64,000 bases of DNA from positions 372,001 to 436,000 of the forward strand of contig NZ_JAAOZT010000007.1 in the NCBI RefSeq assembly GCF_011947285.1, written 5' to 3'. The position numbers were made by a program, and so were the translations under genes. The notes beneath the pieces are model-generated. The model was not told where the DNA came from. It did not search any database and was given only the letters and a program-made list of their open reading frames with translations. The stretch's first letter is position 1; every line of letters starts with the position of its first letter. Of this stretch, positions 36,573 to 50,404 are shown one piece after another. Source of the DNA: Glaciimonas immobilis. GTDB taxonomy: Bacteria; Pseudomonadota; Gammaproteobacteria; Burkholderiales; Burkholderiaceae_D.

Positions 36573-37037
36573 GTGTCGTTATCTTTATAAAAAGGTGGAC
36601 AGAGATCAAGGCCAAAGAGGTTCACTGTTGGCCGGTTTTACATGCACGTACATCCAGCACGCTCAGCCCACCAAGTACATCCAGTACATCCAGTACATCC
36701 AGTACATCCAGTACATCCAGTACATCCAGTACGTCGAACATAAAGCACGGAAAAAACGATCACCGTTTTCACGCAAAACAGGCACCATCTTTGTTATTGC
36801 GAGGAATCATTCTGATCTAAAACAGAGCGAGAAATATCTGAAAATCCCCGAGACTTATCTGTGGACTACAGATAAATCTTAGAACAAATAGACGATTACA
36901 TAATTGAATGAGGCCAGCCGTCGGGGTTCCCATGCATCCGCTAGCTGATTGGGAGCTTATTGATCGGGCCGTAAATAAGAATTGGTTTGGCGAATATAGT
37001 TAGCTAGACTAGACTAATTATGTTGAGGAGTGTCGCT
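36573..37037. other. Intergenic region upstream of the minor-pilin operon
   Basis: The 465-bp gap separates the divergent fimU operon and an antitoxin gene. Besides a 9-nt tandem repeat (36676-36732), it is AT-rich and probably contains both promoters. A frame of 103 codons through the repeat reads as YIQ repeats and does not look like a gene. Confidence 0.4.
36676..36732. repeat. Nine-nt tandem repeat (TACATCCAG) x6 upstream of fimU
   Basis: Six identical copies of TACATCCAG run from 36676 to 36729, followed by a partial TAC. A degenerate copy (TACATCCAGCACG) lies at about 36649. The array starts 104 bp upstream of the fimU start codon, on the side where its promoter is expected. Perfect identity suggests recent slippage. 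Confidence 0.92.
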
Positions 37038-37277
37038 ATGCATATTGTCAATATGCTACAAGCCAAATCTAGTTTGTCGCGTCTGGTTGAGGCTATTGAG
37101 CAAGGCGCTGAACGGGAAATTATCATTGCCAGAAATGGTCGTCCGGCCGCCAAATTAGTGTCCATCGGTTTAGTTGATAACACTCAGCGAATAGGCGTGG
37201 CGAAAAGAGCCTTTAAGGTGCCTGATAATATTGACGCCTGTAACAATGAAGTTGCCACATTATTTCTGGGAATTTGA
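37038..37277 (+). CDS. Phd/YefM-family antitoxin
   Basis: The 79-residue protein is a type II antitoxin of the Phd/YefM group: the N-terminal DNA-binding part is seen as MHIVNMLQAKSSLSRLVEAIEQGAEREIIIARNGRPAAKLV, in outline, with the strand-helix-strand pattern and EREIIIARNGRPAAKL motif. It neutralises the downstream PIN toxin and probably represses its own promoter. The start used is the ATG at 37038, following TGAGGAG. The gene ends inside the start of the toxin gene (TTGA overlap). Confidence 0.9.
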   Translation: MHIVNMLQAKSSLSRLVEAIEQGAEREIIIARNGRPAAKLVSIGLVDNTQRIGVAKRAFKVPDNIDACNNEVATLFLGI

Positions 37278-37666
37278 TCTTGAATTTGTTGCTCGATACC
37301 CACGTGGCGTTATGGGCTATTACTGACGATCCGAAGCTTTCTGTTAAAGCGCGTGAGTTACTTTCGGCACCACGTAATAACATTTGGATAAGTGCCGTAA
37401 ATGTGTGGGAAATAGCGATCAAGCACAGTCTTGGTAGAGAGGTCATGCCAATATCAGGCCAAGAAGCATTACAATATTTTCGCCAGGCAGGATACCAATT
37501 TCTTGTCGTTGAGGCAGAACATGCGGCCATTATGGGAGAGCTGGCAAACCATCACCAAGATCCGTTCGACCGTCTTTTGGTGGCGCAAGCGCTGGCAGAA
37601 CCGATGCGTTTGTTGACACACGATGTCACAGTGGCAAAGTATAGCGATACTATCATTTTGATTTGA
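37274..37666 (+). CDS. VapC-type PIN-domain toxin
   Basis: The 130-residue protein is a PIN-domain ribonuclease. Acidic active-site residues appear in LLLDTHVALW, NVWEIAIKHSLGR and DPFDRLLVAQALAE, followed by LLTHDVTVAKY. Paired with the Phd-type antitoxin. It starts with TTG, either at 37274 (overlapping the antitoxin stop as TTGA) or at 37280; a TTG start is a little unusual and may lower toxin yield relative to antitoxin. The cassette is upstream of a convergent MATE gene. Confidence 0.9.
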   Translation: MILNLLLDTHVALWAITDDPKLSVKARELLSAPRNNIWISAVNVWEIAIKHSLGREVMPISGQEALQYFRQAGYQFLVVEAEHAAIMGELANHHQDPFDRLLVAQALAEPMRLLTHDVTVAKYSDTIILI

Positions 37667-39256: not shown

Positions 39257-39407
39257 ATACACATCGGCAGGATTGGTAATTCGGTTGCTGGTACGATTTT
39301 ACGTAAGAGCTTAGGTGACCGCCTTCGAGTCGCGTACTGCTCCGCAATAGAATTGGTAAATATCTTGATAGCAAAATCGCGACCCTTTTGAGGGATGGAG
39401 TGAATGA
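39257..39407 (+). pseudogene. Probable decayed antitoxin of the second PIN toxin
   Basis: In one frame (from about 39257) the sequence reads HIHIGRIGNSVAGTILRKSLG and beyond, resembling the AbrB/MazE-type DNA-binding motif (RKIGNSLGVTIPKEL-like), until a TGA at 39389. A shift of frame then gives RDPFEGWSE and a TGA at 39405-39407 that overlaps the toxin ATG as ATGA, as a genuine antitoxin end would. No continuous ORF joins them and there is no good start codon or RBS. This reading is tentative. Confidence 0.35.
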
Positions 39408-39802
39408 AGCGATACATGCTAGACACTAATACTGTAAGTCGTCTGATTAAATCGCATCCAGTTGTTGCGCGGAATACACTTAAAGTGCCGATGGCGTCCC
39501 TGTGTATTTCTGCTATTACTGAGAGTGAGCTGCTTTTTGGATTGTCCAGGCGGCCAGAGGCAAAGCGACTTCACGTGGCTGTCCGAGAATTTTTGCGGCG
39601 CGTGGATGTCATGTCTTGGGATAGTGCGGTCGCTAAACATTACGGAATCTTACGGGCGAGGATGGAAGGGCACGGCAAAATACTGGCATCGCTGGATATG
39701 CTGATTGCAACGCACGCCCTGAGCACTGGGGCAATCCTCGTAACAAATGAACGTGCGTTCGATCTGGTACCAGACCTGCAGCGGGAAGACTGGACAAGTT
39801 AA
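39404..39802 (+). CDS. PIN-domain toxin (VapC/FitB-like)
   Basis: This 132-residue PIN-domain protein has acidic residues in YMLDTNTVSRLIK, ITESELLFG, LDMLIATHALSTGAILVTNERAFD, as in VapC-type ribonucleases. It is preceded by no intact antitoxin; the expected gene seems decayed (39257-39407). The ATG follows GAGGGATGGAGTGA, a plausible RBS. It is intact in length, so either the antitoxin is provided elsewhere or the toxin has lost activity by changes not evident here. Confidence 0.85.
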   Translation: MKRYMLDTNTVSRLIKSHPVVARNTLKVPMASLCISAITESELLFGLSRRPEAKRLHVAVREFLRRVDVMSWDSAVAKHYGILRARMEGHGKILASLDMLIATHALSTGAILVTNERAFDLVPDLQREDWTS

Positions 39803-39847: not shown

Positions 39848-41029
39848 TCAGATCGCGACTTGATTCACCCGTTTACTTAATTCCTCCGCACTTTCCTTGC
39901 GTTCGCTATAGCGGTCTACTAACAACGACGAAACGTTGCGAGTGAGTAAGGTAAATTTGAACAGCTCTTCCATTACATCGACCACGCGGTCGTAATAGGC
40001 GGAAGGCTTCATGCGCCCTGTATCGTCAAACTCTAAAAAGGCTTTGGCGACCGAGGATTGGTTAGGAATGGTGATCATCCGCATCCAGCGTCCCAGAATC
40101 CGCATTTGATTGAGCGCGTTAAACGACTGCGAACCGCCCGAGACTTCCATGACCGCCAGCGTTTTGCCTTGCGTCGGACGCACCGCGCCCATGGACAGCG
40201 GAATCCAGTCTATCTGCGCCTTCATGATGCCGGTCATGGCACCGTGCCGCTCCGGCGAACACCACACCATGCCTTCGGCCCATTGCGCCAGCGCGCGTAG
40301 TTCTGCTACTTTCGGATGGGTCTCGGGTTCAGCGTCGGGTAATGGCAAACCGCGTGGGTCGAATATTTTGACTTCGCCCCCCATTGCTTCCAAAAGTCGC
40401 GCCGCTTCTTCGGTAAGAAAACGACTGTAGGACTTTTCTCGCAACGAACCATACAACAGCAGAAAACGGGGTGCGTGAGAGGACCGCGTAACGCCCGTAA
40501 AATCCGCTATCACGGGCTTGTGAAACAGATCAGGCCGAAGGTGGGGCATTATCACGAGCGCTTCCGGCTGGTGTCCGCTAATGTGCTTAACTACTTGTTC
40601 AGTCAGATTGGAAACACGTTTTCCCTCCGCATTGATGACGACTTCGCCGTCTTCTTTAGTAAAAGGTGCTGTTTGTGCGGCGGGTAAAATGTCCAGTAAT
40701 AATTCGGACGGGCGACACAAACGGGTGCCAACAGGCGTCACCACAAACGGGCGGTTTATCAGCGATGGATGCGTCAGCATGGCGTGCAATAACTGGGCGT
40801 CCGTCAGCGTTGCATTGTCCAGAGCGAGTTCGGTATATAGCTTCTCTTTCTGGCGCATCGCGTCACGCACGGTGAGACCTGCATCGGCAATCATTTGTGT
40901 GAGCGTGGCAAGCGATGGCGGGTGTTTAAGGTATTCAATTACCTCCGGCTCAGCGCCGGTATTGCGTATCAGGGCCAACGTGTTGCGCGATGTTCCGCAG
41001 GCGGGATTATGATAAATAGTGATACTCAT
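39848..41029 (-). CDS. ArsC-ArsH fusion: arsenate reductase joined to NADPH-FMN reductase
   Basis: This 393-residue protein fuses two arsenic-resistance enzymes that are usually separate. Residues 1-140 are ArsC of the glutaredoxin-dependent type: [13 protein letters not shown] with the catalytic Cys11, and the arginine-bearing [13 protein letters not shown]. Residues 161-393 are ArsH, an NADPH-dependent FMN reductase that oxidises organic As(III), with [15 protein letters not shown] (flavin loop), [20 protein letters not shown] and [22 protein letters not shown] linker of about 20 residues (141-160) joins them; the ArsH part starts with a Met (161) like a former start. There is no arsR, arsB or acr3 next to it. 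Confidence 0.93.
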
Positions 41030-41187
41030 GGCGTGACTCTCATTAGTGATAAAGTGTCTGTCGTCTACATCGCTTCGTTACCTATACCAACAAGCGACAG
41101 ATGGCTAGTCGTGAGTCCTTAGTTAGTGCGGCTAAAGGGTCGAGTGCGTTCTAAGCGCGTAGTGCTTTGTAAGATTCAGTTCTATAT

Positions 41188-41211
41188 TTCTATAATATTA
41201 GAATTATAGAA
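41188..41211. promoter_or_regulatory. Palindrome upstream of the ArsC-ArsH gene
   Basis: TTCTATAAT (41188-41196) and ATTATAGAA (41203-41211) form a perfect 9-bp dyad with a 6-nt gap in an AT-rich region about 160 bp upstream of the arsC-arsH start. It looks like an operator for a homodimeric repressor such as an ArsR or MarR type, but no such regulator is adjacent. Confidence 0.5.
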
Positions 41212-41287
41212 TTGTAGCAACAGTTTAACCGTCAGGCGCTCGTTAGACCAATCGACTGAAGGATTGCAGCAATCAGTGCCGGACCGG

Positions 41288-44200
41288 TTATTTTAGAGTT
41301 GGTTCGGGCCGCCGCGTCATCCTTATCTCTACGACATGTTCCTTTTCGTCATCAACCAGAGGCACCGAATGGTGGGCGATGAATACGCCGTCGATGGTCA
41401 TCAGGTTTGCTCCGTCGTCGTGTTGCGTCAGGTTGATCTGATAGTTCGTACTGCGATAACGATACCGTATCGAAAACCTGGTCCATTCAGGCGGTATGCA
41501 CGGAGTAATCGTAAGCCGGTCGTTTTCTAGTTTCAAACCCAATAAGGACTCAGTGATCAGTCGGTACATCCAACCCGCGGAGCCGGTGTACCAGCTCCAG
41601 CCACCGCGTCCCATATGTGGTGCGATGCCATACACATCGGCGGAGATGACATATGGCTCTACCTTGTAGATGGCTATATTTTCTGCACTAAGTCCATGCT
41701 TGACCGGATTAATCAGGTCTAATAATTCCCATGCGCGGCGGTGATCGCCCAGGTCGGCAAACGCCATGATGGTCCAGATCGCTGCATGCGTATATTGACC
41801 GCCGTTTTCGCGCACGCCGGGTGCGTAGCCGCGAATGTAGCCGGGGTTGAGCGGGGATTTGTCGAACGGCGGATCCAGCAACTGAATTAGTCTTGCCTCG
41901 CGCCGGACTAAGCGGTGGTCGACGGAGTCCATGGCTTTTTTGGCGCGCTCAGGGTCGCCCGCGCCGGAGATAACGGCCCAGCTTTGGGAGATAGCATCAA
42001 TCTGACACTCTGGATTGGTGGCGGAACCGAGCGGTGAGCCATCGTCGAAGTAGGCGCGGCGATACCATTCGCCATCCCAGGCATTGGTTTCAATATTGGT
42101 CTGCAATTTTTTGGCTTCGGACCGACAAAGATCAGAAAATGCGATGTCACCATGCCGCGCCGCGATGCCCGCAAAGGTAACCAGGACGTGGTAAAAAAAC
42201 CAGCCTAACCAGACGCTTTCACCGTGGCCATGCTCGCCCACTTTATCCATCCCGTCGTTCCAGTCGCAGGACCCTATCAGCGGCAGTCCGTGGACGCCAA
42301 AGCGCAAACCGTGGGTGATCGCGCGCATGCAATGCTGATATAGCGTCGCGGTTGTAGTGGAATGGGCCGGAAGATCGTAGTAAGAATCCTCATTGTCGCC
42401 TACCGGTCGGCCTTCCAGGAAGTGCGCCATTTCATCGAGCACGGTCGTATCTCCCGTCGCGATAATGTAACGGCATGTCGCCAGCGGCAACCATAAGAAA
42501 TCATCGGAGCATTTGGTCCGTACTCCGCGACCCAAGGGCGGATGCCACCAATGCAGCACGTCACCTTCAACAAACTGATGCGCTGCACAAAGTATAAGAT
42601 GATCGCGCAATAAATGCGGTTGCGTATGTACCAGCGCCATAACGTCTTGCAGTTGATCGCGGAAACCAAAGGCACCGCCAGATTGATAATAGCCACTGCG
42701 CGCCCAAAGTCTGCAAGCAATGGTTTGATACATCAGCCAGCCGTTCGCAAGTACATTGAGCGAGGTATCGGGCGTGTCAATCTGTACGGCCCCGAGGGTT
42801 TGATCCCAATACCGATGGACGGCATCCAGAGCGCTATGAGCGGCGGCGCTCCCGCGTAGTTTGCGCACCAGAGCGCTCGCATCCGCGCTGCCATTTTTGG
42901 ATAATCCCAGCATAAAGACGATTTGCTTGCTTTCTCCATTTGCGAGCGTAAATGGCACCTGTATGGCGGCGCATGGATCAAGCCCCGCGCCTACCTTGCC
43001 CGATAAATGCGTCCGTTCCAGCGCCTGCGGTTGTTGCAATGATCCGTTGCGACCGATGAACTCGTTGCGATCTCCCGTCACCGTACGATTTGGATCGTCA
43101 ACGTCGAAGAAAGCCACCCGCTGGCCGAACTCTGTGTTGTAGGCGTTATGGGCAAACAATGCACCACTATGGGGATCGACTTCCGTGACGACATGCATCA
43201 TGGATTTTTCGCGCAAATCCCCTAATACCCATTCGACATAACCGGTTGCAGACAACTTGCGGGTATGGCCAGAATCATTGCGTAATTTAAGCACAGAGAA
43301 CTTCACCGAATCATCGGTGGCAACGTATATCCAGAGTGCGGATGCGATGCCGTTCTCGACATGTTCAAATACGCTATAACCAAAACCGTGACGGGTGACG
43401 TAGGGCGTTGCGGAGCTTGAGTGACCATTAGCCGCGCTCCGGGAGATCGCGGCGGCGCTAGAAAAAGGGTTCGACGACGCGTTGGAAAATGCATGGGCAG
43501 ATGGGGGGGCAGCTGCGTAGGTAGATAAGAGCGGCGTCGGCGACCAGTATTCGGTTGTCTCTTCATCCCGCAGAAAAAAAGCCTCACCGCTGGCAGCGCT
43601 GACTGGATCGTTATACCAGGGCGTGAGACGAAACTCATGCGCGTTTTCGCCCCATGTATAGGCGATGCCATTTTCAGAAACGATAGTGCCGAATTCGGCA
43701 TTGGCCAGCACGTTCACCCATGGCGCAGGGGTTTGTTGATGCGCGCCGGTATTGATGACATATTCGCGACCATCTGGGATGAAGCCACCATACGGATTGG
43801 TCAATATCAGATCGCTACGCTGAATTAGCGCATTGACCGGTTGTATTGACGGCGCCTTGCTGGCGCTCAAACGGGGGACGCGGCTTTCCATGGCACCGCG
43901 ACGATTAAGTTGTTCAGCTAGCGTGCCGCCGCTATCGGTGAGGACGATGCGCGCTACCGAATACAGCAGGGTGCGATCTTCATTGGTAATTTGATCACCG
44001 GGACGGACAAAAATACCGCCGGGGCGATCAACGACATGGCCTTCAATCCCCGCGGCAATCAGTCCCATGATCTGGTCCTGCAGCAATTGCCGGTAACCGG
44101 CATGGTCTTCGTTCCAGATGACCAGATCAACCGCCAATCCTTTCAGACGCCAATAGGAATGGGCCTGCACCAGTTGCCGAACCAGTTCAATGTTGGCGAC

Positions 44201-47200
44201 ATCCTTCATCTGTAGCAGGACAATCGGTAAATCGCCGGAGATAGCATAACTCCACAGGCCGGATTGACCGCGCGTGTTCTTCATCAATATGCTGGCGTCC
44301 GCACGCAACGCGTTATTGGCATAAATGATGGAGTTTGCCAATCGCCCGTATAACTGGGCGTCGGTTTCGGTAGCATTTATCTGGCGCAGGATGACCTGAC
44401 TATGGGTCCATGACAAATCGAACACGCGGTCCGCCAGATGACGATCTTGATATTTATTTATCAGCGTCAGGCCGCCATCGCGCGTCTCACTCACGCCGGT
44501 GACGATATCGATGGTGACCGTCTGCTCCGGGGCTAGCGTAATGCGGTAGCGGATTGCTACGACCGGATCCAGCACCGAGCCCTGGCTGCCTGATAGCGCA
44601 TGGTGACTCAGCATCGCTTGCGGTGCAGCGACGGTACGACCACGTCCGATAAATTGCATGCGATCTGTTTCATAGGACACGACATCGATTTTGGCGCCGT
44701 GTGCCGCCATTAAATGAAACATCCACGGCAGTTTTTCATCGATTGAACGTGGTCTGCGGGTGCATAGAATCGCCCGCTGGTCCTCTAATATTTCCGTCTG
44801 AACGAACAGATTGCTAAACGCTGGATGGGCGCTGTCGGCCGCTGCCGGTGCCAGTACGACTTCCGAATAGCTGGTGATATCGATGGATCGGCGACTACGT
44901 GAGCGATTGGTAATGCGACTGCGGCGCAACTCTATATCGTCCTCCGGCGACACGACGATTTCGGTATGCATCTCGATATCGTAGCCGTCGCCCACATCGC
45001 GGCGTCGGAACTCAGCGCGACCCTCGGAAAAGATGACCTCGTAACCTTGCGCCAGTTTGTGGGTAGGCTGAAATGTGCTGGACCAGTAGACGCCAGTGCT
45101 CAGATCGCGGATATAACAGAATGCCCCCCAGTTGTCGCAAGTCGTGTCCTCGTGCCAGCGTGAAACCGCCAGATCGCGCCAGCGGCTGGACCCGCCACCG
45201 GCATTGCTGACCATCACATGATAGCGACCATTGGAGAGCAACTGCACCTCAGGAATGGCGGTGTGAGCACTGCTTAGTATGCGAACCGGCATTTCTTGCG
45301 TGATGGCCGCGACAGTGCGTATCTCCGCCAGTTCAGTGCTATTGGAGTAGAACGCGCTGGCCTTTGGCACGCGCTCGTGCAGCAATAGCATAGTGGCCTG
45401 AAATAGCGGGTCCGAAGCAAAACGTCGTTGCATCGGTTTATCGAGCAAGAGGTAAGTCAGCGCCAGCAAGCTCATGCCCTGATGATGCGCCATAAAGGAC
45501 CGAATCAGCGCGTGCGACTGACCGCGCGGAAGTCGGGCGCGCGTGTAATCGATGGCTTCATACATGCCGTATTTGCCCTGAAAACCATCGGCATGCAGGC
45601 GCTGCAAGTTAACGCATGCTTGTTCCGGCGCGACCATCAATGCTAATACCGATGCATAAGGTGCGATCACCTGATCGTCTGCCAGGCCGCGCTTGAGTCC
45701 CAGGCCGGGCACGCCGAAGGCACGGTATTGATAATTCAGGCTAGCGTCGAAAGCGTTATAGCCAGACTCTGAGATTCCCCAAGGCATGCCCGTTTGGGTC
45801 CCATAGTCGATCTGGCGTTTGACCGCGGAACGATAAGTTTGATCGAGCAGCGTCTTGTGAAAGGTGGGCATCACGAGCAGCGGCATCAGATATTCGAACA
45901 TCGAACCGCTCCACGATAGCAGAATCGGCGCGCCGCCAGCGGTGGTGAGCTGGCGTCCGAGTGAGAACCAGTTTTCTTGGGGAAGCTGGCCTTGAGCGAT
46001 GGCAACAAAACTGCATAGACGCGCTTCCGAGGCCAGCAAATCGTAGTAGCTTGCGTCGCGTCGGCGCTCGCTTACGTTATAACCAATCGCCAACAAATGG
46101 CTGGCGCGGTCGTATAAAAATCCGTATTCCATCTGCGCTATTTCGCCTAATTCAAGCGTCAGTCGCGCAATAGTTTTGATGTAGGTGGTGGCGCGCTGCG
46201 CCGCCATTTCTACACAGGCGTGGATCTCAGCCAGATGATCGCTTTGGTCGGCGCTGCCAAGCAGTGAACTAACGGGGGACGCGGACAGGATTGTAGTAGC
46301 CTGATTTTCATTCGCGTCATTATTTACATCCCCAAAATGAGAGTTATTCCGATTGGCGTAATCCATAGCGCTAACCGAATTTGCCACAGTAGCTGCCACA
46401 GGATCGGCAACCCTCAGGGTACTTTCAGCGAACGCCCTTTGTTCGGTTTGCTGCATCCTTGCGCTCAAGGCCAGCAAATCGCGCATGGTCGGAATGTGAT
46501 TCAGATGCGGCAACTCGGTCATCCAGTGCGCATGCTGCGGCAGCATCATCCAGGGTGCCAGCCATGCCAGCGTCGCGCTTGCTTCGCGGCAATGATGTAC
46601 CAGCGCGCGCGTCCACCATGCGATCTCCGAAGTCGGGCTGATTTGCACAGCGCTTTCAATTTCCAGTGCGCCATAAGTTAGTCGATCGATGACCGTTTGC
46701 AACGCCATCAGACTGATCGGCGGCGAGGCGCAGGCTGCCGCCAGCTCCACATGAAAGGCGATACATTCATTGGCCGCTTTAGCCGGTAACGTTTCAGCAG
46801 CGTTGATGGCTTCTTGTAAAATTGAAAGCGTATCCTGTAGTCCGACTAGCCATTGTTTGCCAATGATCGGCTGATCGCTCAAGTCGTTGAGTCCGGCCTT
46901 CAATGTCAGCAAATGACCAGCCAGATTGCCGCTGTCAACCGTCGATACGTACATCGGCTGTAGCGGTTTTAGATATTGCGTATCGTACCAGTTATAAAAA
47001 TGACCCCGATGACGCTCCAGCGTGAGTAACGTGCGGATGGTATTATCCGTGCGCTCCAGCAATTGTGCCAACAATATGTAGCCGAAATCATGCGCGGCAA
47101 GATTGGCTAGTAGCGCCATCCCGATATTGGTGGGCGAGGTCCGGTGTGCAATGACCGCGACGGGTTGCTCCTGCACGTTATCGGGCGGCAGCCAGTTATC

Positions 47201-50200
47201 CTCCGGACCGACATAGGTTTCAAAAAAAGCCCACGTTCTGCGCGTCAGGTTGCGTAGAAAACGGTGCTGTTCGTCCGTCAGTTGCGATGGCGGCGGGACC
47301 TGCGGACAACTGATGCGCCATGCGATGCCCGGCGCAATGATCCACAAAACGAGTAACGGTGCGGCGATAATCAGCGCCTGCGGTGCTGCCACAAGAATAA
47401 CGGCCACGATGGCAAGCGCCAGCATCGGTTCCATCCACATGGCGTGGTAGCTGCCGAGCAGATCGTTGGCACCATGACGACTGATCTCGCTGGACGGATT
47501 CCACTCCAGCATGCGGCGGCGGGATATCAGCATGCGCCAGCAGGTGCGCACAATCGCGTCCGTACTGAAACTTGCTTCATACGGCAGAAAGGCGAGCACC
47601 AGTAATGCCTGGATCAAGTAATTTCCGCTGCTGTCCAGGACCGCTCTTAAATGTTGCCTTAGCAGGACATCGCTGGGCTTGCGCAACAGATCAATCAGCG
47701 ACCCGATCATGTAGGGCAGAATGATGATCCCCAGGACCGTCATGGTCCAGAAAAACGGTGCGTTGAATAGCGTCCAGCCAAAAATCATTAGTAAGAATAA
47801 TGCGCCGGGGACCATGCTGCGTCGCAGGTTGTCGAATATCTTCCAGTGCGACAAGGCCGATAAATAATTGTGCTGTCGGGGCTGGCTACTGTCGCCACCG
47901 GTTACGCGGGGGCGCAGCCATCCGGCGATTTGCCAATCGCCGCGAATCCAGCGATGGCGACGGCTAATGTCGGTACCAAAACGATTTGGATATTCTTCAT
48001 ACAGCTGAATGTCAGACAGCAAACCAGACCGTGCATAGCAGCCTTCGAGCAGGTCGTGACTCAGAATTTGGTTCTCTGGCAGGCGGTCAGCCAAGGCATG
48101 TTCAAAGGCATCGACATCGTAAATGCCTTTGCCTATGAACGATCCTTCTTTGAATAAATCCTGATACACATCGGAGACAGCGCGGGTATAAGGGTCAATT
48201 CCGGATTCGCCACCGTATAATCGTGCGAAAAAGGACGTGTCCGCACGCGGCAAACTGTTGGCGACGCGGGGCTGCAAAATGGCGTATCCGGCCGTTACAC
48301 GCTGTAGCGCCGGATCATAAAACGGTCTGTTAAGCGGATGCGCCATGGCCCCGGAAAGTTGCCATGCGACATCGCGTGGCAATAGCGTATCCGTGTCCAG
48401 CGTGATGACATATTTGATATTGGACAGCACTTCGGGCTTGCCCACAATTTTCATGAAGGCATTATCAAAATGGGCGCTTGCAGTCCCACTGCGCAACCAG
48501 GCGTTTAATTGCGCCAGTTTGCCGCGCTTGCGTTCATACCCCATCCAGATATTTTCTTGCGGATTCCACCTCCTCGGGCGATGAAACAGGAAAAAAGTGT
48601 TGCGGTGTTCAGGGTTATATTTATCATTTAGTTCGTCAATGCGCTGCGCCACCATCTGGAGCAGCAATGTATCCTCAGGCAGGGCTTCACTGGAGGCGTC
48701 GCGAAAATCGGTGAGCAGGCAAAAGTGTAGATGCGGATCACGATTAGCTAAAAATCGTACTTCCAGCGCCTCACATAAATCGTCGATTCTCTCCGGGTGT
48801 ATCAACATGCTGGGCACGACCACCAACGTTCTGGATTCTGCCGGAATACCTTCTGAGTAATCCATTCGGGGAAGGCGTTGCGGCTTCGATAGCATCGTCG
48901 CGAGCCAGTTGACCAGCGCCAGCGCCAGGTGGCTGGTGGCGATCAGCGCCAGAACGGTGATAATAGGCAGTTGCCATTTTTGGGTGTGCTGCGGATAAGC
49001 GTAGATGTAGACGTGATACAGCAGGCCCGCAGTCAGTAACGAAGTCAGGACGGCAATCCCGCCCAGATACAGTCGTAGCGGTATAGCACTGGCAGATTTT
49101 ATAAAACGCTCCAGCCCGACGCGCCGCACTGCCGCAATTTTTTCTATTTGGCGTACACCGACATCGACCAGGTAATACCCAATATGCGCTTTACGCGGAT
49201 CAAGTGTCGCATCACCGGCCCCGAATCCGTGGCTATCCTGCGCTGCCCCGGATAGTTGCGTTGCCGCCTCATGCGCAAACAGGATCGTTTGCTGCGCGAT
49301 TTCCAACTCGGTAAAGTGTGAGTGTTTAGCGAGATGCTCGACACTATGCCGATACTGATCGCGCGTCGCGAAGTCCATTTTTCCATAGACTTCCGCAGGA
49401 TCGTTTTGCAGCGTCAGCTCAACGATACTCATGGTTTCAAAAAATTCCCGCCAGTTCATCGTCGCCAGAAAACGCAGGCTGCCGATACTGTTGCTAATTG
49501 AAACCTGATCCGCCGCCTGTTGCTGTATTTCAGTCAATACCAGTTGCTCGACGGTCTCGCCTGATTGTAATAATCGCTGTTCGATCCATGTCAACGGTAG
49601 CGCCAGCGCCGGTCCTTGCCCCTGCAGACGGCGCGCCAGTTCTGCCACGAACGCTCCCACCATCGGCGGGTCGGAGCGCGCCATGTCGGCAATAATCAGA
49701 ATCAGGCTGCTGGGATCGGTTTCCAGTATTTCCGTCATCTGGTCAGCCCAAGAGTCAGCCAGATTACGGTGTTGGCTACCGATTGCCAGCCTTGCAGCTA
49801 CGCGGCGCAAATTATCGATCAGCGCTAAGCGCAGCATGATAGGAATAGCCCACAACTCGCCCATTTTAAGCGGCATAACCTTTTGATATGCGGCAACAAA
49901 ACGACTGAGATTTTCTGGATCGACGCGCGCATCGCCGTGCGAAATTGTTTCCAGCGCGATATCGTAGACTCGCGGAAACCCCGCAGAGGGTCCGTCAAGT
50001 AGTCTCGGCAACTCCATGCTGTAATTTTTTGGAAGATGACGTTTGGCCGTGCGTATTTGCTCTTCGATGAGATAAAAATTATCCAGCAACCACTCTGCGG
50101 CAGGGGTGATCTGACGGTTGACCTTTACCGACTCAATGAGCAGAGTGGACGCATGCATCAGCACTCGCTCGTTGTCGGCCAAACGCGGCAACAGCTGGTC

Positions 50201-50404
50201 TGGGCTCGGTTCAGGATTGATTTTATGATCAGTGGCGAGCAGTTTGCCGTGCTGCTCCATCTGTAATCCGCTAAAAAGCTCTGCCCGCAGTGGACGTTCA
50301 TCGGCGGCGGTCTTTGAGAGCGTGGTGTTGGCGCTGAAACGGTCGGTAAAGTGGCGGATCGTATGATCCAGTTCACCTAGCAAGTTGTTGAGATATGCTT
50401 TCAA
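41288..50404 (-). CDS. ndvB: Cyclic beta-1,2-glucan synthase-like protein (GT84-GH94)
   Basis: At 3038 residues this is the giant of the window and matches NdvB/ChvB-type synthases. Order: soluble N-terminus (1-430), a pair of membrane helices (about 435-500), a GT84 glycosyltransferase domain with [10 protein letters not shown] (near 665) and the QxxRW-like [11 protein letters not shown] (near 813), further helices (about 850-1010), a glycoamylase-like domain (about 1030-1550), and a long C-terminal GH94-type phosphorylase region with [37 protein letters not shown] and the catalytic Asp in [17 protein letters not shown] (near 2715). It makes osmoregulated periplasmic beta-1,2-glucans, chain-length control lying in the phosphorylase domain. 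Slightly longer than ChvB. It is monocistronic. Confidence 0.93.
   Translation of the reverse strand: [3038 protein letters not shown]

Follow-up and report, generated by a model that had tools for sequence, protein, structure and literature searches.

The DNA analysed here, referred to as the window, is a stretch of 64,000 nucleotides from a contig of Glaciimonas immobilis. One of its genes encodes ArsC and a complete ArsH in a single 393-codon frame. Translation of 39848-41029 meets no internal stop, and from ATG to stop it yields 393 residues. The gene lies on the minus strand, a detail missing from the sequence-only reading that first drew attention to it. Four other genomes of the same genus (G001-G004) were available for comparison and G004 is the nearest relative. 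The features of the locus are as follows.

39848-41029 (stop included), minus strand: the arsC-arsH fusion as one open reading frame of 393 codons and a stop
40610-41029, minus strand: residues 1-140, the ArsC half, a glutaredoxin-type arsenate reductase with Cys11 (TIGR00014, PF03960)
40550-40609, minus strand: residues 141-160, the linker, partly resembling the N-terminal extension of G004 ArsH and of low model confidence
39851-40549, minus strand: residues 161-393, the ArsH half, an FMN-dependent flavoprotein (TIGR02690)
40603-40632, minus strand: the junction, with the old arsH start region retained (a GTG preceded by GGAGG, with an ATG five codons ahead of the GTG)
41086-41220, minus strand: operon-head remnant, sharing 70% identity with the G004 arsR promoter and arsR 5' end (140 columns)
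within 41177-41220 (41220-41192), minus strand: promoter-like site, TTGCTA, 17 nt, TATTAT, a consensus match only
41177-41192 and 41199-41214: 16-nt inverted repeat, overlapped by the promoter-like site, a consensus match only

The domain order proposed from the sequence, ArsC followed by ArsH, is borne out by the NCBIfam models, with both families above their cut-offs. Residues 3-115 match TIGR00014 (arsC) with 140.3 bits against a cut-off of 106.05, and residues 161-379 match TIGR02690 (resist_ArsH) with 396.8 bits against 292.25, over positions 1-219 of the 219 in that model. The narrower exception model NF007456 gives the ArsC half a score of 189.5, below its cut-off of 242. Pfam places ArsC at residues 6-111 and FMN_red at 188-330. 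The active-site motifs, said to be intact in both halves, are indeed kept. In an alignment with relatives Cys11, Arg59, Arg93 and Arg106 of the ArsC half are conserved, and we take these to be the equivalents of Cys12, Arg60, Arg94 and Arg107 in ArsC of plasmid R773. When a near-invariant column is defined as one that is at least 95% conserved, the ArsH half deviates at none of 103 such columns (129 rows) and the ArsC half at one of 39 (96 rows), a change of V to L at residue 111. Each half also matches known structures over nearly its full length, ArsH 2q62, 7ple and 2fzv, and ArsC 1i9d and others; no chain spans both halves among the 13 PDB sequences listed (E up to 1e-10). A structure model of the whole fusion is of moderate quality (mean pLDDT 79.4, pTM 0.54), with high confidence in the ArsC part and low confidence in linker residues 141-160 (mean pLDDT 48-51).

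Within the window's own genus, both domains share a frame in one of five genomes. In G002, G003 and G004 arsC and arsH are separate neighbours in different frames, with arsH starting inside the end of arsC, and G001 (L104) possesses arsR-acr3-arsC with no arsH alongside. A wider scan of contigs for relatives, in which the best 80 of at least 590 loci were classified, returned 7 fused loci, 47 with adjacent separate genes and 26 with ArsH but no ArsC within the distance limit. The sequence-only reading had counted separate genes in most relatives, with a stop codon between them, against a natural fusion. Separate genes are what the near relatives possess; as for the stop, 36 of the 47 adjacent pairs are frame-shifted and 11 are in frame with a stop between. 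Plasmids present the same picture. On pBMUL01 (L230) the NCBI-derived annotation gives arsC at 1230-1652 and arsH at 1630-2367, an overlap of 23 nt, and on a second plasmid the overlap annotated in the same way is 14 nt. No single-frame fusion was found among the best 40 of 207 and the best 40 of 202 plasmid records (at least 80% coverage), all of which were two-piece.

Comparison of the junction with these overlaps sheds light on how two frames became one. In the relatives, arsH begins within the overlap at a candidate ATG, or at a candidate GTG five codons on, behind GGAGG. The window and G004 both have this GTG at nucleotide 412 of the gene. It precedes the ArsH core by 137 nt in the window but by 126 nt in G004, and this net difference of +11 nt, which lies between the arsC ATG and the ArsH core, takes ArsH from frame 1 to frame 0 and thus into the frame of arsC. 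The old arsH frame in the window runs into a TGA four codons past the GTG, so that ArsH is read on from arsC. It had been suggested that arsC lost its stop codon, giving rise to the fusion, and that Met161 is the former ArsH start. Neither suggestion agrees with the comparison, since arsH of the relatives lies in another frame and starts inside arsC, and the residue opposite Met161 in G004 ArsH is an internal Met. The N-terminal extension of the G004 protein resembles the linker of the window. The placement of the insertions and deletions is ambiguous. Either about 11 nt were gained at or near the junction, as favoured by MAFFT and by gap costs from -5 to -12, or one base was lost and four codons were gained later, which suits the protein alignment. 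A simple one-base deletion is weakened as the origin by the size of the net difference and by this ambiguity. The retained arsH start signals, together with GTG159 or ATG161, could permit some separate production of ArsH.

The surroundings of the gene point to its descent from an operon. In G004 an arsR-acr3-arsC-arsH cluster adjoins the same MATE-family gene that adjoins the fusion in the window. At the fusion locus acr3 is absent and arsR is reduced to a stub that has lost its start and contains a stop, with the promoter region retained; there is therefore no complete ars operon here, if such an operon is taken to need arsR and a gene for an efflux pump in one cluster. The inverted repeat is a possible ArsR operator. 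Another promoter-like site was found on the plus strand. Genes for arsR (71% identity) and acr3 (89%) were located on another contig, C10, and no arsC or arsH was seen beside them among the open reading frames listed. In the genome as a whole the fusion is the only strong match to ArsC and to ArsH, the others having identities of 35% (E 2.5e-8) and 23% (E 1.6e-5). A search for thioredoxin-type ArsC gave one match below the cut-off (45.3 bits vs 174.3), and the ArsB model gave no match in the genome. As read from the list of open reading frames, the arsR-acr3 pair of C10 stands amid genes resembling those for copper, chromate and heavy-metal efflux (L133, G000:C10:14000-33000), and this region is a possible metal-resistance island.

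A search for the same domain order, as recommended by the sequence-only reading, located it elsewhere. In genus g22, 3 of 13 genomes carry ArsC and ArsH in a single frame, one of the proteins being identical to that of Oxalicibacterium faecigallinarum (L021), and in the genus to which L038 (titled Psychrobacter immobilis) belongs 10 of 100 genomes do. Two metagenome-assembled genomes, one of Comamonas (L024) and one gammaproteobacterial (L023), have the fusion as well. Positions 4551-5687 of L036, a contig of 7.6 kb titled Vibrio hibernica, carry a fusion that is very close to those of Psychrobacter and represents either transfer or contamination. G762 (L158, L163) and G765 (L161, L164) each contain the fused form alongside a separate arsC-arsH pair. 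At the six fused loci for which neighbours were tested, a gene for ArsB, Acr3 or ArsR adjoins each: ArsB at L021, L038 and L035, Acr3 at L024 and L023, and ArsR at L038, L032 and L024. In broader surveys the fused form accounts for 1 of 369 matches in the class (E up to 1e-60) and, at E up to 1e-100, for 1 of 399 matches in the order, in both cases the window's own, and for 4 of 392 in the family among the matches listed; these surveys overlap, and divergent fusions could escape them.

An ArsH tree was constructed by a quick method from 138 rows, comprising 16 fused, 81 adjacent and 41 without ArsC nearby. On this tree the fused label takes 7 state changes, of which 4 are forced by starred branches, and on this basis a single origin of all the fusions is rejected. 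Because three changes can equal one gain and two losses, we claim several origins and no exact number. The window pairs with the separate gene of G004 (SH-aLRT 94, not starred) and belongs to no starred set, so that its fusion is most likely a separate event of its own. In the other fused lineages, pairs with unsaturated dS (many pairs were saturated) gave dN/dS values of 0.022-0.110 for ArsH, 0.065-0.203 for ArsC and 0-0.56 for the linker. The low values indicate that the fused proteins have been kept functional there. The end branch of the window on the ArsH tree is 0.13, twice that of G004 (0.065). When changes in the window and in G004 were counted with different outgroups, the ratios were 10:6, 9:8, 7:7, 7:8 and 6:6 for ArsC and 7:6, 8:5, 8:5 and 4:5 for ArsH; by these counts neither half has a consistent excess over G004.

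These data must be weighed against the possibility of an artefact. If the assembly had the wrong number of bases at the junction, two overlapping genes would appear merged, and the intact old arsH start region, the separate genes of near relatives and the fact that the frame changes with a single base are all compatible with this explanation, as is the alignment with one base lost and four codons gained. However, the difference from G004 totals 11 nt, most of it placed at the junction under most of the gap costs tried, and on this account we regard a simple base-calling error as quite unlikely. The assembly also appears sound on other evidence, of modest weight: of 304 G004 open reading frames only 31 (41,943 bp) could be matched to a conserved counterpart across 456 kb of the contig, and none of these was frameshifted; when the comparison was reversed, the sole candidate among 32 was the fusion. 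Further, the fusion is real in other lineages. A second possibility, which we consider unlikely though less so, is that the frameshift is real and occurred in an abandoned operon remnant, where it was tolerated as resistance is carried by arsR-acr3 elsewhere, and that poor production or loss of activity may affect one half or both. With acr3 and most of arsR deleted, the locus may be decaying, and the position of arsR-acr3 between other metal genes on C10, the lack of arsH beside arsR-acr3-arsC in G001 and the longer end branch of the window are consistent with such a history. It is harder to reconcile with 1179 coding bases that contain neither a stop nor a second frameshift, with the retention of the conserved columns and absence of consistent acceleration, and with a genome that possesses no other clear ArsC or ArsH.

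The idea that a shared polypeptide couples arsenate reduction to the oxidation of organoarsenicals, with the product of ArsC handed to ArsH, finds no support in these results and seems to us very improbable. Both activities do concern arsenic and reside in one polypeptide, and a discussion passage of PMC9137774 leaves room for a transfer of electrons from As(III) by free flavin. But ArsC yields inorganic arsenite, which is not the main substrate described for ArsH; the parts consulted of PMC6205960 and PMC9137774 describe an enzyme that acts on organoarsenicals, oxidising the trivalent forms (both sources) or, according to the abstract of PMC9137774, reducing organo-As(V). In addition, the linker is the fastest-changing part in the fused lineages and is modelled with low confidence, and thus gives no sign of a fixed interface.

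We consider it somewhat more probable than the reverse that this is a natural gene fusion that tethers two independently working enzymes. An ancestral arsR-acr3-arsC-arsH operon, like that of G004, would have been stripped of acr3 and the greater part of arsR, and the two coding frames would have been united by a net shift of frame where arsC and arsH briefly overlap. A single polypeptide of 393 residues would then be made from the retained ars-type promoter. Its ArsC half would reduce arsenate with glutathione and glutaredoxin, and its ArsH half, an FMN/NADPH flavoprotein, would act on organoarsenicals or as an NADPH-FMN reductase, each half working on its own across a flexible linker of about 20 residues. 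The two enzymes would thereby be supplied at a constant ratio of one to one, and ArsH oligomers would carry ArsC; ArsH is tetrameric in known structures, and the tetramer of P. denitrificans ArsH (7PLE) is described in the consulted portion of PMC9137774. Export of arsenite and regulation would presumably come in trans from the arsR-acr3 genes of C10. A more general proposal, which we advance only tentatively, is that ArsC-ArsH is a recurrent, selected architecture. Time and again, overlapping arsC and arsH genes would come to share one frame, and the product would be kept in some lineages as ArsH oligomers bearing ArsC at a fixed ratio. In the window this would have left a one-gene arsenic module that has lost its regulator and pump and acts in trans with arsR-acr3 elsewhere.

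The fusion is a modest variant of known arsenic resistance, in which two enzymes that usually come from two overlapping genes are produced as one protein, and it does not constitute a new system. The separate pair of pBMUL01 encodes the same two proteins, as immediate neighbours in the same order and on the same strand, but in two frames, whereas the window has one. Stand-alone ArsH (2q62, 7ple, 2fzv) and ArsC (1i9d) each match one half of the single chain. The fusions of g22 and of the genus of L038 share the domain order and the single frame but, at 377-379 residues, they are shorter and have other linkers; the loci tested adjoin arsB, and they occupy branches of the ArsH tree separate from that of the window. 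ArsC is also joined to products of ars operons in ArsR-ArsC, Acr3-ArsC, AqpS-ArsC and ArsN-ArsC, the partners given in the consulted part of PMC6205960; the window differs in having ArsH as the partner, a combination that this part of the account does not name. No fusion is mentioned in the corresponding part of PMC3954881, on Burkholderiales, and 'arsCH' in that of PMC3644233 is shorthand for genes. The claim of novelty therefore stands insofar as no ArsC-ArsH fusion was found in the open-access literature searched, and falls insofar as the same fusion exists in at least three other lineages.

ArsH may accordingly be added to the known fusion partners of ArsC, and the locus offers a clean case of overlapping, co-translated genes turning into one protein. 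Since fused and separate forms coexist in close relatives (g22, the Psychrobacter-titled genus, G762 and G765), the costs and benefits of tethering are directly testable. Annotation by best family only may name these genes 'ArsH' and overlook their ArsC half: ArsH was the first NCBIfam match in all five of the other fused proteins tested, and no fusion-specific NCBIfam model was found among the six scanned, the window's included.

The fusion is bordered upstream by a gene for a 3038-residue protein of glycosyl hydrolase family 94 (41288-50404), which we take to be probably a cyclic beta-glucan synthase. On the other side, PIN-domain genes flank the MATE gene. One (37020-37666) comes after a PhdYeFM-type antitoxin gene, and the other (39404-39802) is situated between the MATE gene and the fusion, on the opposite strand.
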